From Candidatus Aquitaenariimonas noxiae (GTDB lineage: Bacteria; Omnitrophota; Gorgyraeia; Aquitaenariimonadales; Aquitaenariimonadaceae), in contig PEWV01000074.1 of the NCBI GenBank assembly GCA_002780005.1, positions 1 through 57,836 of the forward strand: a stretch of 57,836 bases of DNA, given 5' to 3'. Below the pieces are notes generated by a model, which was not told the origin of the DNA, made no database searches, and was given only the letters and a program-made list of their open reading frames with translations. Of this stretch, positions 7,897 through 17,592 are shown one piece after another. A program made the translations under genes and the position numbers. Every line of letters starts with the position of its first letter. Positions within the stretch are counted from its first letter, which is position 1.

Positions 7897-10173
7897 TTAT
7901 GCCTTTTTTTCTATTCTCTTAAAACCTAACCTGCCGTTCTTAGAATAAATAATCGCGCCAAGGATAAGGATGGCGCATATAATTATTGCCGTTATCATCC
8001 CGGGACTTGTGTTTTTATACTGTATAAGAATGGGCGCCGCTAATAACGAGACCAGATTAATGACTTTAATCATGGGATTAAGCGCCGGCCCTGCCGTATC
8101 CTTTAAAGGATCGCCGACGGTATCGCCGACCACCGAGGCCTTATGGCACTCCGAACCTTTACCGCCGTATAATCCGTCTTCGATCGTTTTTTTGGCATTG
8201 TCCCATGCGCCTCCCGCACTTGCCATAAACACAGCTAAAAGCTGACCCGATAAGATCACGCCTGCCAGAAATCCTCCCAACGCCTCGACCCTTAAAACCA
8301 TTCCTATGAGAAGCGGGCTCACCACCGCTATCAATGCCAATCCTACAAGTTCTTTCTGCGCGGCAATCGTGCAAATATCAACGGCATTTTTATAATCAGG
8401 TTTTACTTTGCCCTCCATCAATCCGGGTATGCGGAACTGTCTGCGCACCTCCTCGACTATTAATGAAGCCGCGCGGGCGACCGCAGTTATGGAAAGCGAG
8501 GAAAACAGCCACGGTACAGCTCCCCCTATTAACATTCCTACAAAAACCGTCGGGTCAGAAACCCTGATACCGGTAAATAAAAGCCTTAAGTGCTCAGGGA
8601 CGCCCATCTGGGCCTGGACCCTTGTAATATCCGTCATGAATGCGCCGAACAAAGAAACAGCCGCGATCACTGCCGAACCGATAGCCACACCTTTAGTAAT
8701 GGCCTTGGTCGTGTTCCCGACCGCGTCCAGATCTGCCATGATCTGGCGCGCCTTTGGCTCCATATGAGTCATTTCTCCTATTCCGTTAGCGTTGTCGGAA
8801 ATAGGGCCGAATGAATCCATGGCTACGTTATTTCCTGTCAGGGTCAGCATACCTATGCCTGTCATCGCAACGCCGTATAGAACGTAAACTGCGGGTTGGC
8901 CCCAGTAAATAAGAATTGCCGCTAATATGGTGCCGGCAATAACCATGATCTGCCACACGGAAGACTCGAAACCTATAGCTAAGCCGTGCAACAAGAGCGT
9001 CGCCGCACCAGTTTTGGAGCTTTCAGCAATGCCTTTTACAGGGGCGTTTTCGGTATGGGTAAAATATTTCGTAACCTCATCAATAACGATCGCAAGCACT
9101 ATACCCACAGCAACCGAAAAGAACGCTCTCCACTCGTGCATATAATAATGCGCTAAGAAAAGAAAAGCGACAATGGAAATGCCGGCAGAGGTATAAAAAC
9201 CCTTGTTTATGCTCTTAAAGGCGTCTCCTCTTTCCTCGTCTTTCTTGCCTTTTACTAAATACGTACCGATAATGGAAGAAATAACGCCTATCCCTCGGAT
9301 AAGAAGCGGGAAAATAATCCATTTTAATTCACCTGTCAAAGAAACGAGCGCCAACCCGAGGATAAGAGCAGAGACGATCGTAACTTCATAAGATTCAAAA
9401 ATATCGGCTGCCATACCGGCGCAATCGCCGACATTATCGCCCACCAGATCTGCTACAACAGCCGCGTTTCTAGGGTCATCCTCGGGGATCCCTTTTTCAA
9501 CTTTTCCTACGATATCAGCCCCTACGTCAGCTGCCTTGGTATATATTCCGCCTCCCACCCTCATAAATAAAGCCAAGAGCGTTCCGCCAAAACCAAAACC
9601 TAAAAGCACGTCCGGTGACGCTATACCAAAAATTATAAAAATAGTTGTGCCTCCCAAAAGGCCTAGCCCGTCGGTGAGCATTCCTGTGATCGTCCCGGTC
9701 CTGTAAGCTATCTTCAAAGACTCGGAAAAGCTTCTTCTCGCGGCCGATGCGACGCGAACGTTCCCTTCAACCGCCATACGCATACCGAATTGCCCGACTA
9801 TCAAAGAAAACACAGCGCCCATAACAAAGGCAAGCGCCCGCCCCAACCCTACTACTAGCCTCACCTTATCAAGAGTTAAATTTCTGAAACGGTCAAGCGC
9901 TTCAGGACTAGGCGGAATAATATAAACGGATAAAAAGAGGACTACCGTAAGAATAAAGATCAGCGGCAATATTGTTCTTAATTGCCTTTTTAAATATGCA
10001 TCAGCACCGGTTCGTATGGCATTCCATACCTCTTGCATTTGAGATGTCCCCTTATCATGCCTCAAGATCTGGCTGCGAAGGAGAAGGGCGTAACCAAGGC
10101 CTACAAATGATATAAAAAACACCGACCATATGGCGACAATTTCAAAAAACGACGCGTCAGGCAAACTGAACAT
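7897..10173 (-). CDS. hppA: Membrane H+-translocating pyrophosphatase
   Basis: A 758-residue, about 16-helix integral membrane pyrophosphatase that couples PPi hydrolysis to ion pumping across the inner membrane. The PPi-binding loop DVGADIVGKVE is at 216-226, followed by DDPRNAAVVADLVGDNVGDCAGMAAD, and the C-terminal acidic loop GDTVGDPLKDTAGPALNP is intact. Residues 486-495 read GNTTKAITKG: Lys490 and Thr493 occupy the two positions that separate K+-independent (Lys, Thr) from K+-dependent (Ala, Ala/Gly) enzymes. Known Na+ pumps of the family are K+-dependent, so I infer a proton pump. A promoter of its own is visible upstream, next to diadenylate cyclase. Confidence 0.93.
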   Translation of the reverse strand: MFSLPDASFFEIVAIWSVFFISFVGLGYALLLRSQILRHDKGTSQMQEVWNAIRTGADAYLKRQLRTILPLIFILTVVLFLSVYIIPPSPEALDRFRNLTLDKVRLVVGLGRALAFVMGAVFSLIVGQFGMRMAVEGNVRVASAARRSFSESLKIAYRTGTITGMLTDGLGLLGGTTIFIIFGIASPDVLLGFGFGGTLLALFMRVGGGIYTKAADVGADIVGKVEKGIPEDDPRNAAVVADLVGDNVGDCAGMAADIFESYEVTIVSALILGLALVSLTGELKWIIFPLLIRGIGVISSIIGTYLVKGKKDEERGDAFKSINKGFYTSAGISIVAFLFLAHYYMHEWRAFFSVAVGIVLAIVIDEVTKYFTHTENAPVKGIAESSKTGAATLLLHGLAIGFESSVWQIMVIAGTILAAILIYWGQPAVYVLYGVAMTGIGMLTLTGNNVAMDSFGPISDNANGIGEMTHMEPKARQIMADLDAVGNTTKAITKGVAIGSAVIAAVSLFGAFMTDITRVQAQMGVPEHLRLLFTGIRVSDPTVFVGMLIGGAVPWLFSSLSITAVARAASLIVEEVRRQFRIPGLMEGKVKPDYKNAVDICTIAAQKELVGLALIAVVSPLLIGMVLRVEALGGFLAGVILSGQLLAVFMASAGGAWDNAKKTIEDGLYGGKGSECHKASVVGDTVGDPLKDTAGPALNPMIKVINLVSLLAAPILIQYKNTSPGMITAIIICAILILGAIIYSKNGRLGFKRIEKKA

Positions 10174-10237
10174 CTTTATCTATCCTTTCCTTTTGTTCTC
10201 CGTTTCTTATCTATTTATTCCAGGTAATAATGATATG

Positions 10238-10265
10238 AGTATATATCTTAAATAAATAAATTCAA
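10238..10265 (-). promoter_or_regulatory. Predicted sigma-70 promoter of hppA
   Basis: On the minus strand TTGAAT (10260-10265) and TATACT (10238-10243) are 16 bases apart, between the cdaA stop and the hppA start. The hexamers fit the sigma-70 consensus well, but the region is AT-rich, so chance is possible. Confidence 0.45.
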
Positions 10266-10276
10266 GCAAAATTTCT

Positions 10277-11023
10277 TTATTTTTTTCCCCTCAAGGCCCT
10301 TCCGAGAAGCCTTGATAATTCTTTTTGGGAAGGAGGATTGGATAGCTTTCCGCGGTAGGCCAAACTTATTTCTCCGCGCTCCTCTGAGATCACCAGGGCA
10401 ATAGCGTCGGTTTTTTCCGTCACACCTATCGCCGAGCGGTGGCGCGTACCCAACTGCGCTGGGATCCCCTCATTCGTACTGACCGGGAGGATCGCTTTAA
10501 GCCTTGCTATACGGCCGCGCCTGATGATCACTGCCCCGTCATGAACGTTTGAATTTTTTTCAAAGAGCGCGCTTAAAACCTCTGCCTTTATATCCGAATC
10601 AAAGTTCATACCTCCGGCTAAAATAGAGTTTAAATCGTTTCTTTTTTCAATGACTATCAAAGCACCCACCTTGCGGTTGGAGAGAAACTCGGCCGCTCTA
10701 CATACCTCGACAAGATAAGCCGGTAAAGAGCCGGTGAATAGGTTGCCGTATAAAAACATATTTTTTATGAAAATAAACCCACCAGACAAAAAATCAAAGA
10801 GGATCGCTGTTGCGGCAAAGATAATAATTGAAACTGCCGAATATTGTATCACCTCCGCGGGCATGTCGCTGGGGATTAAAACCAAGGCCAGGAACAGGAA
10901 TAGAAAAAAAGTCAAAAAATTAGAGGTAAATTTCCACCTGGCCAGCTTCTTTCCGCGATACGCGAAGATCAAAGCCACAAAAACAGATAATACGGCAAAC
11001 CATATTAAATGATTGGTGGTCAT
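10277..11023 (-). CDS. cdaA: Diadenylate cyclase, CdaA type
   Basis: A 248-residue protein with three N-terminal membrane helices (about 5-22, 33-50 and 60-80) followed by a DisA_N-type cyclase domain (about 100-240). The catalytic marks DGA (162-164) and RHR (194-196, in GTRHRSAIG) are both present, as in active CdaA. It condenses two ATP into cyclic di-AMP at the inner face of the membrane. c-di-AMP commonly controls K+ uptake, osmotic balance and envelope stress in other bacteria. The usual partners CdaR and GlmM are not next to it; the neighbours are a cupin gene 10 bases upstream and hppA downstream. Confidence 0.92.
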   Translation of the reverse strand: MTTNHLIWFAVLSVFVALIFAYRGKKLARWKFTSNFLTFFLFLFLALVLIPSDMPAEVIQYSAVSIIIFAATAILFDFLSGGFIFIKNMFLYGNLFTGSLPAYLVEVCRAAEFLSNRKVGALIVIEKRNDLNSILAGGMNFDSDIKAEVLSALFEKNSNVHDGAVIIRRGRIARLKAILPVSTNEGIPAQLGTRHRSAIGVTEKTDAIALVISEERGEISLAYRGKLSNPPSQKELSRLLGRALRGKK

Positions 11024-11033
11024 TCTACCCCCC

Positions 11034-11354
11034 CTAAGCCCTTATCATCACTAAAAGCATCTTAAAGCGCTCTTGCGCCTTCAAGGTGTGAGGCTTGTTT
11101 GCCGGCATAATGATCATCTCTCCGGCTTTTAAACGAAAAACCTTACCTGAAACCGTGATCTCTGCCTTGCCGTCCGCAATATAAACAAAGGCGTCGAAGG
11201 GCGCAGTGTGTTCGCTTAAGCCCTGTCCTTTGTCAAAAGCAAATAGTGTTACAGTCCCTTTCTCCTTTTTTATTATTTCCTTACTTACGACCGAACCATC
11301 CTGATAGTCTATTAATCCCGATAGATCCTTTACCTGTCCTATCGATCCTTCCAT
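11034..11354 (-). CDS. Cupin-domain protein
   Basis: A 106-residue single-domain cupin. The beta-barrel core shows G(X)5HXH-like residues (GLSEHTAPFDAFVYIADGKAEI near 50-71) and the second motif GEMIIMPANKPHTL near 82-95. Such small cupins often bind a metal and a small ligand, or act as sensors or isomerases; no specific reaction can be assigned. It is the first gene of a likely two-gene unit with cdaA (10-base gap), just beyond the terminator of the Spy-like gene. Confidence 0.8.
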   Translation of the reverse strand: MEGSIGQVKDLSGLIDYQDGSVVSKEIIKKEKGTVTLFAFDKGQGLSEHTAPFDAFVYIADGKAEITVSGKVFRLKAGEMIIMPANKPHTLKAQERFKMLLVMIRA

Positions 11355-11387: not shown

Positions 11388-11427
11388 AATTAAAAACCCT
11401 CTGCAACATATTTCGTCGCAGAGGGTT
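11388..11427 (-). terminator. Rho-independent terminator after the Spy-like gene
   Basis: On the minus strand AACCCTCTGC (11418-11427) pairs perfectly with GCAGAGGGTT (11395-11404) around a 13-base loop, followed by a T-rich tail. It lies 43 bases past the Spy-like stop codon, so that gene forms its own transcription unit. Confidence 0.85.
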
Positions 11428-11469
11428 CGCAAATCACTTCTGAGCCTTTAACCGCCAGAACCTGATAAA

Positions 11470-11985
11470 TTAATAATCGGCTGACTTTTCGTCGACAGGG
11501 CCGTGCGAGTCTCCACGCTTAAAATGAGGCCTGCCCCTTATGCCTTTTGTCCTGGCATCATGTATTGATTCCAGCCTCTTATACTGATCGGGGGTAAGAA
11601 CCTGCTTCATCAAAAGAATTGATTCAACCCTTTGCCGTAATTGCGTGCTGTTCAGATCTCCGACTTCTGTAACGAGCTTGTTTATCTTGTTCCTGTCAAC
11701 GGTATCGCTTTCCATTTCCTGTTTCAACTTTTCTCTCTTGGTCCGGATCTGCTCTCTTATCTCTTTCGCTTTAGCATTATTAACGTCGAATTGCTCCTTG
11801 ATCTGCTTCTGCTGATCCGGGGTTAGGCCAAGCTCTTTAAATGTCTTGTTCATCTTCGCTTCCTTGTTCACATTCGTTTTTTCCTGTATATCTTCATTAA
11901 GCGGTTGGGCATATGATACCCCACAGATGAACAATAATGATACCACCCCAGATAAAAGCGCGGTCTTTACCAATTTCATATTCAT
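11470..11985 (-). CDS. Spy/CpxP-like periplasmic chaperone
   Basis: A 171-residue exported protein. A Sec signal peptide (cleavage after SYA, about residue 26) is followed by a mostly helical, charged region containing the LTxxQ-type repeat twice: LTPDQQKQIKEQF near 55-67 and LTPDQYKRL near 131-139. Spy and CpxP are ATP-independent periplasmic chaperones or stress sensors; the related ZraP binds metals. The first ATG has an AGGGGG ribosome site at good spacing. An ECF-type promoter (12009-12037) sits upstream and closely matches the one in front of the sigma gene, so it is likely a direct target of that sigma factor. Confidence 0.8.
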   Translation of the reverse strand: MNMKLVKTALLSGVVSLLFICGVSYAQPLNEDIQEKTNVNKEAKMNKTFKELGLTPDQQKQIKEQFDVNNAKAKEIREQIRTKREKLKQEMESDTVDRNKINKLVTEVGDLNSTQLRQRVESILLMKQVLTPDQYKRLESIHDARTKGIRGRPHFKRGDSHGPVDEKSADY

Positions 11986-12008: not shown

Positions 12009-12037
12009 TTAGACAAAGATGCGGCATAAAAAGTTCC
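12009..12037 (-). promoter_or_regulatory. ECF-sigma promoter of the Spy-like gene
   Basis: On the minus strand GGAACTT (12031-12037) and TCTAA (12009-12013) are 17 bases apart. The -35 word is the classic GGAACTT of sigma-E-like ECF factors. The flanks GGAACTTTTTA and TTGTCTAA are shared with the promoter in front of the sigma gene at 13109-13136. Confidence 0.7.
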
Positions 12038-12039
12038 GT

Positions 12040-12534
12040 CTAAAGAAAGTACTCCTCGATTGACGTGCCAAAACTAATATTATCGGAATAAGTTGAAGCA
12101 CCATTATCTAATCGGGAAATGAACTCGGATTGGTCTTCTATATAACTGATGACCTCTGACCTGCTGCCAAAAGGCAGTTTCGAAAATATTACCGCTACAA
12201 AAACCAGCGCTGTGGCCGTGGCAACGACAACAACCGGCCTCCTGAAAGAAAGTACCCCTTGCAAGAAATCCTTTAAATGCACAAATACGTTCGCAGGCCT
12301 GGGTTCTGGCTCTATATCTATTTTTTCTTTTATCCTTTCCCAGAGGTAAGCCGGGGGCTTTAGGATACCTGCATTTTTAAACGGGTCTATCGCCGCGCGC
12401 TTTAAGGTTTCCTCAAAACTTCTGCACTTTTCGCAAACACGTAAATGGTCCTTGACCTCTTTAGCCAAAACTCCTTTGGCCTCGCCGTCGGTATAATCGG
12501 TCAAAAGTAATTCTTGTATCTTTTTACAATTCAT
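12040..12534 (-). CDS. Zinc-finger anti-sigma factor (zf-HC2)
   Basis: A 164-residue membrane-anchored anti-sigma factor. The N-terminal zf-HC2 domain holds an early Cys3, then HLRVCEKC (HxxxCxxC, about 31-38), the zinc-binding anti-sigma motif. A transmembrane segment follows near 95-115 and leaves about 45 residues in the periplasm. Such proteins hold an ECF sigma factor inactive until an envelope signal releases it. Its start lies inside the end of the sigma gene (11-base overlap), the usual arrangement for a sigma/anti-sigma pair. Confidence 0.85.
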   Translation of the reverse strand: MNCKKIQELLLTDYTDGEAKGVLAKEVKDHLRVCEKCRSFEETLKRAAIDPFKNAGILKPPAYLWERIKEKIDIEPEPRPANVFVHLKDFLQGVLSFRRPVVVVATATALVFVAVIFSKLPFGSRSEVISYIEDQSEFISRLDNGASTYSDNISFGTSIEEYFL

Positions 12535-13090
12535 TTTTGACCACCTCTTTTCCCTTGTAAGCCAAAATGGCCTCTCGCGCCCTTTTTAATCTGGTACGCA
12601 CCGTATTAATATTAACCTTCAAAGCCTCTGATATCTCTTTATAGCTCAGGCCTTCGATCTCCCTTAAGATCATACAGGTCCTCTGTTCCAAGTTTAGCAT
12701 ACCCAATAATGAAGTTACAAGCTTTTCATTATCCTCTTTATAGATACTGTCTTCCCTCCCGGAGGGAGCGCCTTCGGTTTCTATAGCTATATCATAATTG
12801 TCTTCTCTTTTACTCATTTCTTTTACTCTTTTGTTGCGTATATTTATCGCGCTATTAACGGTTATCCTGTACACCCATGTTTTAAAAGACGACCGAAATC
12901 CGAAATATTTAAGGTTTTTATACACTTTTAAAAATACGTCCTGAGTGGCTTCTTCGGCGTCCTCTCTGCTGTTCGTTACCCGAAAAGCTACAGTATAAAC
13001 AAATCCCGAAGCGGCGTTATATATCTTTTCGAACGCCTCGGCATTACCCCTGGAAGCCTCTATTATAATATCATCTGATAAGGTATTCAT
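12524..13090 (-). CDS. ECF sigma-70 family RNA polymerase sigma factor
   Basis: A 188-residue sigma factor with region 2 (about 20-90, with REDAEEATQDVFLKVYKNL and FKTWVYRITVNSAIN) and region 4 (about 125-180, LEQRTCMILREIEGLSYKEISEAL then a helix-turn-helix). It lacks regions 1 and 3, as ECF factors do. It directs RNA polymerase to GGAACTT-type promoters. One such promoter lies directly upstream, so it is probably autoregulated, and the linked anti-sigma factor suggests control from the envelope. Confidence 0.9.
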   Translation of the reverse strand: MNTLSDDIIIEASRGNAEAFEKIYNAASGFVYTVAFRVTNSREDAEEATQDVFLKVYKNLKYFGFRSSFKTWVYRITVNSAINIRNKRVKEMSKREDNYDIAIETEGAPSGREDSIYKEDNEKLVTSLLGMLNLEQRTCMILREIEGLSYKEISEALKVNINTVRTRLKRAREAILAYKGKEVVKNEL

Positions 13091-13108
13091 TCCTATAGCT
13101 CCCTTATA

Positions 13109-13136
13109 TTAGACAATAAAACTGGTAAAAAGTTCC
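13109..13136 (-). promoter_or_regulatory. ECF-sigma promoter of the sigma/anti-sigma operon
   Basis: On the minus strand GGAACTT (13130-13136) and TCTAA (13109-13113) are 16 bases apart, 18 bases before the sigma ATG. The motif fits the sigma-E type and is nearly repeated in front of the Spy-like gene, which supports autoregulation. Confidence 0.7.
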
Positions 13137-13144
13137 CTATCCTT

Positions 13145-13660
13145 CTATTTAAAAGCAAACACGCGTTCAATGAATTCTTCTCTTGCGCGCGGATCCTTAA
13201 GCCTGTCATCGCCCTCCGCTGGAAGCGCCGGGAATCGGCGCATGAGCGCGGCAGCGAATATGCCCGGGCTCGTTCCCGCGGGGAAGCAGTCTTTGCCATA
13301 TACAGCGATAGATCTCATCCCGCAGCTCGGCGAATTGCTTTTAAATACAAAACCGGAAAGTCTTGCTTTTCCCAATTCATCCAACTTTTTTTCTGTCCAT
13401 TCTAACATTCGATCAGTATGGTCGATATTTGTCTCTACAGTAATCAGCCTGGGGGATTGAGGCATGCCGACTAAATGCATTACCTCCCTGGGAACGGGCA
13501 GCCCGCATCCGGCTTCGGGGCAAACGCCTATCCACTCTACAGATCGGCCGAGCGTATCTTTTAAATAACGATCCAGCCTGTGACCTCCGTCATAGCGAAC
13601 TTTTTCTCCCAAAAGGCATGAGCTTATGCCGACTTTAATTTTTTTTCGAATTGTCTTCAT
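13145..13660 (-). CDS. DUF523 family protein
   Basis: A 171-residue protein with the DUF523 signatures: GISSCLLGEKVRYDGG near 11-26, CPEAGCGLPVPRE near 47-59, and SNSPSCGMRSIAVY near 108-121. The conserved cysteines suggest a metal or cluster site. In many bacteria DUF523 is fused to a C-terminal DUF1722 (about 310 residues in total); here only the DUF523 half is present. The function is unknown. It does not overlap its neighbours and appears to be a single gene. Confidence 0.85.
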   Translation of the reverse strand: MKTIRKKIKVGISSCLLGEKVRYDGGHRLDRYLKDTLGRSVEWIGVCPEAGCGLPVPREVMHLVGMPQSPRLITVETNIDHTDRMLEWTEKKLDELGKARLSGFVFKSNSPSCGMRSIAVYGKDCFPAGTSPGIFAAALMRRFPALPAEGDDRLKDPRAREEFIERVFAFK

Positions 13661-15844: not shown

Positions 15845-16697
15845 CTATTTAACTATATGTTTTGTAAATCTCGAGCTTAAAACCCTCGAGACTATGCTTA
15901 TTATTAAAATTATTACAGTAAGTATAAGCGCTGACGCATACGCGCGCGCCTGAACCTCGGGAAAAGGTGTTCCTAATTGGAAAAATATGGCCAAAGGCAA
16001 GGTAGCGGCCGGGCTTAATAAAGAAGAGGGTATACTATCGCTGAAACCGGCTGTAAATATAACCGAGGCGGCGTCTCCTATACCTCTTCCAAAGGCTATC
16101 AATACGGCAGTCACTATGCCGGGCAGGGCCTGCCGAACTACGACTTTCATGGAAGTCTCAAGCCTCGTAGCGCCCAGGGCGTATGAAGCCTCTAAAAGTT
16201 CTCTCGGCACCATCTTTACCACTTCGTCCATGGCCCTGCTTATAATGGGCAGGATAAAAAGCGCAACAGTTATAATTCCGGCTAATAATGAAGCCCACAA
16301 ATGAAAAAAAAGCATAATAGCGAACCCAAAAGCACCGTAAACTATTGACGGCACCCCCCCATAATACATCAAATGAAAAACGCGTGAAGTTTACCAGCGG
16401 CGAGTCTTTCTTCGAGTATACATTAATATACAAAACGACCGGCAGGCTGATCAATATCGCCAAAAACGTAGCGCCGCCTGCCAGATAAAGCGAGCCTACA
16501 ATAGCGTTCAATATTCCGCCGGCTTTCCCAAGATAATATCCGCCCTTTGGCGTTTGCGTAACCATTGCCCAATTCATAGCGGGCAGCCCTTTAATAACTA
16601 TTACGGACAAAATGAAAACTACGACCGCCAGGACAGTCAGCGTGGATATGGACATAAGGACTTTAAAAATATTTTCTTCTATCTTTCGCTTATCCAT
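15845..16697 (-). pseudogene. pstA: Phosphate permease PstA, frameshifted at a G7 run
   Basis: Inner-membrane permease half of the Pst phosphate transporter, split in two frames. The first part (from ATG 16697, MDKRKIEEN) covers the N-terminal helices up to FDVLWGG. The second part continues from [16 protein letters not shown] through the EAA-type loop ([15 protein letters not shown]) to the C-terminus at 15845. The break is at a run of seven G on the minus strand (16354-16360); six G would give the expected [13 protein letters not shown] and an intact protein of about 283 residues. This could be an assembly error, a phase-variable tract or a true mutation. The ATG at 16697 fits directly behind the pstC stop. 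Confidence 0.85.
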
Positions 16698-16698
16698 C

Positions 16699-17592
16699 CT
16701 ATTCAACGCTCCTCTCGACCCTGACAAGGATCATCCTGGATATAACATTAAAAAATAAAACTACTACCAATAAGATCAAAGAACCTAACAACAGGGCCGA
16801 ATCATACAATGGGATCGACATCATCTCTCCGTAATTATTGGCGATCAACGCCGGCAGCGGATATACGGGATCAAAAAGCGTGGAAGGAACCTTAGCAACA
16901 TTCCCGGCAACCATAAGCACTGCCATGGTTTCTCCGAAGGCCCGCGAAACTCCGAGTACGATCGCCGCGATCACGCCGGGCATTGCCTTACGCATAACGG
17001 TGTGCTTTATGGTCTGCCATTTCGTGGCCCCAAGTGACAGGGAGGCTTCTCTCATCTCGTTCGGTACTGTTCTAACAACCTCTAACGACACATGTATGAT
17101 CACGGGAAATATCATTATAGCAAGGATGATGCCAGCCGCCAAAAGACTGTAGCCGGTCGAGAAAGTCCCGAAATACGGCGCGATGTAATCTTTTATCAGC
17201 GGGACTATTACCAAGACACCCCACACCCCGTAAACAACCGATGGTATGCCGGCAAGCAAATCTATAAGCGGTTTGGAAAATTCGCGTATCCCCTTAGGGG
17301 CATACTCCGAAAGATATATTGACGTAAGGATACAAAACGGAACGGCTATGATAACAGCTACACCCGTTACCCAAAGCGTCCCTATGATAAACGGGAAGAA
17401 ACCGAACTCTCCTTTAAACGGCCGCCAGGAAGAGGAAAATATCAATTCCGCCAAAGGTTTAGCGAAAAGGATCGGCTTAGACTTGCAATACAGCCCGAAT
17501 ACCATTAGAAAAACGATAAAGCCGCAGGAAAGCGTCAAAAACAGCATAAGCTTACTTGCAATTTTATCTAGGAGCAGCCTTACGCTTTTCAT
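16699..17592 (-). CDS. pstC: Phosphate permease PstC
   Basis: A 297-residue integral membrane permease with six predicted helices, pairing with PstA in the phosphate transporter. The permease loop EASLSLGATKWQTIKHTVMRKAMPG near 180-204 is the site that contacts PstB, and AGIPSVVYGVWG near 114-125 is typical of Pst permeases. The frame is intact. It lies 14 bases behind pstS and one base before the pstA ATG. Confidence 0.9.
   Translation of the reverse strand: MKSVRLLLDKIASKLMLFLTLSCGFIVFLMVFGLYCKSKPILFAKPLAELIFSSSWRPFKGEFGFFPFIIGTLWVTGVAVIIAVPFCILTSIYLSEYAPKGIREFSKPLIDLLAGIPSVVYGVWGVLVIVPLIKDYIAPYFGTFSTGYSLLAAGIILAIMIFPVIIHVSLEVVRTVPNEMREASLSLGATKWQTIKHTVMRKAMPGVIAAIVLGVSRAFGETMAVLMVAGNVAKVPSTLFDPVYPLPALIANNYGEMMSIPLYDSALLLGSLILLVVVLFFNVISRMILVRVERSVE

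Follow-up and report, generated by a model that had tools for sequence, protein, structure and literature searches.

Do two copies of one promoter motif, one ahead of a gene for an ECF sigma factor and the other ahead of a gene for a Spy-like protein, mark a self-controlled stress circuit, and is the Spy-like protein the only output of that circuit? This question is raised by a minus-strand locus of Candidatus Aquitaenariimonas noxiae in the window, i.e., the whole 57,836-nucleotide stretch of DNA analyzed here, which is contig C64 of a 1.93-Mb genome (97% complete). The first-pass annotation described the locus as a compact, self-controlled envelope-stress circuit with a periplasmic chaperone as its output. 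The order of the genes on the minus strand is DUF523 (13145-13660), ECF sigma factor, zf-HC2 anti-sigma factor, Spy-like protein, and terminator, with the following features:

13109..13136 (-), ECF-type promoter of the sigma operon, with -35 element GGAACTTTTT and -10 element GTCTAA
12524..13090 (-), ECF sigma factor, 188 aa (Pfam, NCBIfam, PDB sequence search, alignment A1)
12040..12534 (-), anti-sigma factor, 164 aa (zf-HC2, PF13490; alignments A2 and A5), with an 11-base overlap with the sigma gene
12043..12075 (-), codons for the conserved C terminus of the anti-sigma factor, residues 154-164, ..FGTSIEEYFL-COOH (ortholog alignments)
12009..12037 (-), second copy of the ECF promoter, ahead of the Spy-like gene (exact motif match)
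11470..11985 (-), Spy-like periplasmic protein, 171 aa (Metal_resist/LTXXQ), the sole copy of this family in the genome
11908..11985 (-), residues 1-26 of the Spy-like protein, a predicted Sec signal peptide that ends in SYA, ahead of Q (from the sequence)
11394..11428 (-), intrinsic terminator after the Spy-like gene (stem-loop of -23.8 kcal/mol, z -6.8)

Both motif copies are present on the minus strand exactly where they had been reported. The first one, GGAACTT-N16-TCTAA (GGAACTTTTTACCAGTTTTATTGTCTAA), is located 8 bases past the stop codon of the DUF523 gene and 18 bases upstream of the sigma ATG, whereas the second, GGAACTT-N17-TCTAA (GGAACTTTTTATGCCGCATCTTTGTCTAA), starts 2 bases after the anti-sigma stop codon and is 23 bases upstream of the Spy-like ATG; in each case, a purine-rich ribosome-binding site separates the promoter from the start codon. 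With spacers of 15 to 18 bases, the window contains no further match, which bears out the earlier remark that no third well-spaced match was seen and, together with the placement of the two sites, confirms the motif observation. By chance, a mean of 0.08 matches would be expected, and none of 100 dinucleotide shuffles contained two or more. A search for the same elements with spacers of 9 to 12 bases, as opposed to the true 16 and 17, returned no match. The terminator that had been assigned to the Spy-like gene at 11388-11427 is real as well, its stem-loop spanning 11394-11428. Past it, on the same strand (window positions 7897-11354), are genes for a cupin, a diadenylate cyclase (DAC), and a membrane H+-pyrophosphatase. 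Elsewhere in the window, a pstA-like gene of a pst phosphate transport cluster (15845-16727, minus strand) is found in two overlapping frames that meet near a run of seven G residues (16354-16360), a probable frameshift in the assembly or the genome.

The sigma factor consists of regions 2 and 4 only (Sigma70_r2, residues 24-87, and Sigma70_r4_2, residues 125-174), with neither region 3 nor region 1.1, and scores 100 bits against TIGR02937 (cut-off, 42.9). Its nearest solved chains in a PDB sequence search are AlgU, RpoE, and SigW, and the adjacent anti-sigma gene and the motif ahead of the operon place it among the ECF factors at the sequence level. The anti-sigma factor has the zinc-finger residues H30-C34-C37 (Hx3Cx2C), which are invariant in alignment A5, and one membrane helix at approximately residues 100-119 (structure model with a mean pLDDT of 81), the combination found in class I (zinc-finger) membrane anti-sigma factors; its periplasmic stretch is very short and variable. 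RsiW and ChrR are its matches in the PDB sequence search; a fold search gave no informative match overall (best E value of 1.3).

The Spy-like protein scores above the Pfam cut-offs for PF13801 and PF07813 and has two LTPxQ (LTxxQ) motifs, in which Q58 and Q134 are invariant among 42 homologs; Ala26 of the signal peptide is kept in 38 of them. The protein is composed of helices only, and a fold search matched it to ZraP, CpxP, CnrX, and Spy (E about 0.01, probability 1.00). A signal peptide, an all-helical hairpin fold, and two LTxxQ motifs characterize the Spy/CpxP/ZraP (LTXXQ) superfamily. The score against the Spy equivalog model NF007769 is 39.6 bits, far under the cut-off of 174, so the protein is a Spy-like member of the superfamily and not a Spy equivalog. 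Judging from its family, it can be expected to act as a chaperone.

The motif is not scattered at random across coding regions: its strict version, with GTCTAA as the -10 element, has three matches in the 1.93-Mb genome, and all three are placed as promoters. The third one, outside the window (G000:C55:25909-25937, minus strand), is 56 bases before a DUF6515 gene (E value of 1e-20), present in a single copy in the genome and followed on the same strand by genes for an outer-membrane efflux protein (OEP/TolC), an HlyD/MacA-like adaptor, and MacB. The TolC-like gene behind this promoter (L046:9818-11107, minus strand) is in two pieces because of a single in-frame TAA, either a sequencing error or a real loss; it is intact in the relatives. 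When two mismatches were allowed, the genome contained 39 matches vs 63 for the reversed-pattern control, i.e., not above background, and each of the near-matches inspected fell within an ORF. Weak regulon members are therefore not proposed. Exact GGAACTT-TCTAA matches at C59, C66:1539, and C66:25226 were rejected, as they lack GTCTAA and are within or close to coding sequences.

The Omnitrophota are an abundant phylum with hardly any cultured members, and our literature searches turned up no description of a stress regulon in this group. The named relatives belong to Candidatus Omnitrophota. Orthologs of the sigma factor (47-61% identity) were detected in 10 of the 59 same-class genomes, the window's own among the 59; strict motif sites are present in all 10, most of them immediately ahead of the sigma and spy genes. 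In a class-wide survey of 384 genomes, 90 encode a strong ortholog of the anti-sigma factor (E value of at most about 1e-19, a threshold set after seeing the list) and 89 contain GGAACTTTTN13-15GTCTAA. Both are present in 70 genomes, the motif only in 19, the ortholog only in 20, and neither in 275 (Fisher odds ratio of 51, p of 2e-40). The 19 motif-bearing genomes without a strong ortholog suggest that other ECFs use a similar motif.

The sigma/anti-sigma/Spy order is kept in 63 of the 71 orthologous loci from named genomes. The strict motif precedes the sigma gene in 35 of the 71 loci and the spy gene in 24 of the 63 that have an adjacent one; reversed, scrambled, and wrongly spaced controls gave zero at both positions. 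Where a spy promoter is present, it is located 0 to 6 bases past the anti-sigma stop codon in most orthologs. In some loci the motif is found only before an upstream DUF6515 gene, and others have none. With half of the loci lacking the strict motif ahead of the sigma gene and most lacking it ahead of spy, the double promoter is a frequent but not a general feature. Four loci (L236, L245, L251, and L255) have two or three tandem spy-like genes after the anti-sigma gene. Some of the 71 locus records are labeled Elusimicrobia, Nitrospinota, Nitrospirae, Auribacterota, and others, possibly owing to binning errors.

Motif sites across the class were fetched with a preference for those not beside the sigma gene, so the counts of the genes downstream of them (sigma, 30; Spy-like, 33; DUF6515-like, 22; TolC-like, 8; others, 35) are not frequencies. 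Among the others are an RND pump and, where the genome has another ECF, DUF4139-like genes; in the relatives, the names DUF4139-like and RND come from reading the sequences and not from a Pfam result. That relatives have the motif ahead of DUF6515, TolC, or RND genes points to an output made up of Spy, efflux, and DUF6515, and in one genome (G019) the module forms a single cluster: DUF6515, sigma, anti-sigma, Spy, TolC, adaptor, and MacB. Thus, the initial description of the circuit holds at the sequence level, and throughout the class, for the autoregulated sigma/anti-sigma pair and Spy. Its account of the output was incomplete, given the third strict site before the DUF6515-TolC-MacA-MacB operon and the homologous sites in relatives. 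In six loci (L074, L140, L141, L143, L144, and L145), GGAACTTTT..GTCTAA is found before genes for DUF4139-like secreted proteins, mostly in genomes outside the strong-ortholog set, pointing to a putative second group of ECFs that prefers the same promoter. In three more (L061, L133, and L161), the motif precedes a family of secreted glycine-rich proteins (..VLKQGLLGAGxGAxxxxASGG..), a possible further member of the regulon.

Conservation also extends to the C terminus of the anti-sigma factor, where the orthologs share the consensus G-T-x-[IVL]-E-x-[YF]-[FL]-L (GTxIExYFL-COOH). In alignment A5, conservation of this tail is 67%, vs 27% for the preceding 30-40 residues. The rows of A5 were partly hand-picked, so the frequencies are taken from an unselected set of 69 orthologs, in which the strict tail is found in 41 and a hydrophobic end in 53; the tail is missing in some orthologs. 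The wobble bases of its codons vary while the amino acids are kept, and the promoter starts past the stop codon, so an origin of the tail as a side effect of promoter DNA was rejected. In three loci (L111, L134, and L149), the spy promoter is within the 3' end of the anti-sigma gene and the conserved tail is absent; in L111 and L134, the -10 element ends in the TAA that serves as the anti-sigma stop codon. PDZ domains usually bind a free C terminus (PMC7593790), and the tail resembles a PDZ-protease ligand. Prc degrades the periplasmic domains of other anti-sigma factors (PMC11637429), and the genome encodes one Prc and one RseP homolog. We infer that the anti-sigma factor undergoes regulated proteolysis, and its conserved free C terminus offers a concrete hypothesis on sensing and cleavage of short-tailed anti-sigma factors.

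Taken as a whole, the locus probably represents an autoregulated ECF sigma/anti-sigma module for envelope stress that drives its own operon, the Spy-like gene, and the DUF6515-TolC-MacA-MacB operon. The membrane-spanning zinc-finger anti-sigma factor would hold the sigma factor until its short periplasmic part is destroyed, with release likely proceeding by stepwise proteolysis from the C terminus, perhaps by Prc or another PDZ protease acting on GTxIExYFL and then by RseP. The freed sigma factor, which we infer to be the one that reads these promoters, would transcribe its own operon and, from the second promoter copy just past the anti-sigma stop, the Spy-like gene. The position of this copy implies that Spy may come from two sources, read-through and its own promoter, the latter of which would amplify it. 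Transcription of the unlinked DUF6515-TolC-MacA-MacB operon would co-induce efflux, so that the response might combine holding or refolding of unfolded periplasmic proteins with the export of harmful compounds. That the signal is envelope stress is suggested by family membership.

The part played by the Spy-like protein allows two other readings. It might be both sensor and output: idle Spy would mask the GTxIExYFL end of the anti-sigma factor from a PDZ protease (e.g., Prc), and unfolded clients would titrate Spy away, whereupon the tail would be cut, RseP would finish the cleavage, and the sigma factor would be freed. We consider this arrangement unlikely; if true, chaperone titration would serve as a thermostat of the periplasm, much as with DnaK and sigma-32 in the cytoplasm. 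Alternatively, the Spy-like protein could be chiefly a sensor or co-anti-sigma factor of the CnrX type that binds periplasmic metal and controls the anti-sigma factor, turning the circuit into a metal-resistance switch, as its Pfam family (Metal_resist), the fold it shares with CnrX, the neighboring sigma/anti-sigma genes (an arrangement also seen in cnrYXH), and the efflux operon in the regulon might suggest. However, CnrX-type proteins have a membrane anchor and conserved His/Glu/Met ligands, and the protein from the window has a predicted cleavable signal peptide instead. There are no conserved His or Cys columns among the 42 homologs, and the core of the protein has a single His. Its sequence is nearer to Spy (3oeo, E value of 1e-9) and ZraP (1e-8) than to CnrX (0.0075), and the anti-sigma factor is similar to RsiW and ChrR, whereas CnrY is of another class (PMC8103513). 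The metal-sensor reading is therefore highly improbable and, with ligands not conserved among the homologs, was rejected.

The remaining alternatives concern the promoters. They could be read by another ECF, such as G000:C53 (31% identical), the sigma gene studied here being just one of its targets; indeed, the genome has several ECF-like genes, and some of the sites in the 19 genomes with the motif but without a strong ortholog are before DUF4139-like genes. This seems very unlikely, given how closely the motif tracks this particular module across the class, that ECF operons of this type are as a rule autoregulated, and that the recognition-helix region of the sigma factor is RpoE-like (TVRxRlxRARE). 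It is also quite unlikely that the second promoter is weak or vestigial and that Spy is made mainly by read-through from the sigma operon. The gap between the anti-sigma and spy genes is just 54 bases with no terminator, and 39 of the 63 loci lack a strict second site, but the copy in the window is a perfect match with good spacing, and sites of this kind, where present, keep the same place past the anti-sigma stop in many families.

The autoregulated module favored here is closest to CirY/CirZ of the gut bacterium Phocaeicola vulgatus, a sigma/anti-sigma/spy operon with a tested regulon (PMC13114119, 2026), in which deletion of CirZ raises cirY and spy (PMC13114119). As compared by gene order and description, a single transcription unit in each of the two systems combines genes for an ECF sigma factor, an anti-sigma factor, and a Spy-like protein, in the same order. 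The P. vulgatus regulon additionally includes a predicted hydrolase and a glucosaminidase/LysM protein, whereas the one in Omnitrophota has DUF6515 and TolC-MacAB, and only the Omnitrophota module is described as having a second promoter copy directly ahead of spy and the conserved tail of the anti-sigma factor. The resemblance to RpoE/RseA of E. coli and AlgU/MucA lies in a close ECF sigma factor, a membrane anti-sigma factor, a role in the envelope, and the -35 element GGAACTT, which E. coli RpoE reads (PMC8103513). Unlike those systems, the Omnitrophota anti-sigma factor has a sequence of the zf-HC2/RsiW type and a periplasmic part that is very short, an RseB-like gene was not seen in the operon, and Spy is not a member of the RpoE operon. 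SigW/RsiW of Bacillus subtilis is similar in its sigma factor and in the zf-HC2 sequence and single membrane helix of its anti-sigma factor but has another -35 motif (PMC8103513), a Gram-positive regulon, and no Spy. CnrYXH of Cupriavidus likewise combines an ECF sigma factor, an anti-sigma factor, and a periplasmic protein of the Spy/CpxP fold in one locus with an efflux output, but CnrX is a membrane-anchored metal sensor, in contrast to the Omnitrophota protein without conserved metal ligands. Finally, the BaeR regulon of E. coli consists of spy and a TolC-dependent pump (mdtABC, acrD, and tolC) (PMC2731931), the same pair of outputs as in the Omnitrophota module, although BaeSR is a two-component system with an RND pump and the module has a MacAB-type one with DUF6515. 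The pairing of Spy with TolC-dependent efflux thus appears to arise under ECF sigma factors as well as under two-component systems. The sigma/anti-sigma/spy kind of operon is known; the new elements are the regulon in Omnitrophota, its promoter code, and the tail of the anti-sigma factor. The code, GGAACTTTT-N13-15-GTCTAA, needs no more than the sequence to predict regulon members in many genomes.
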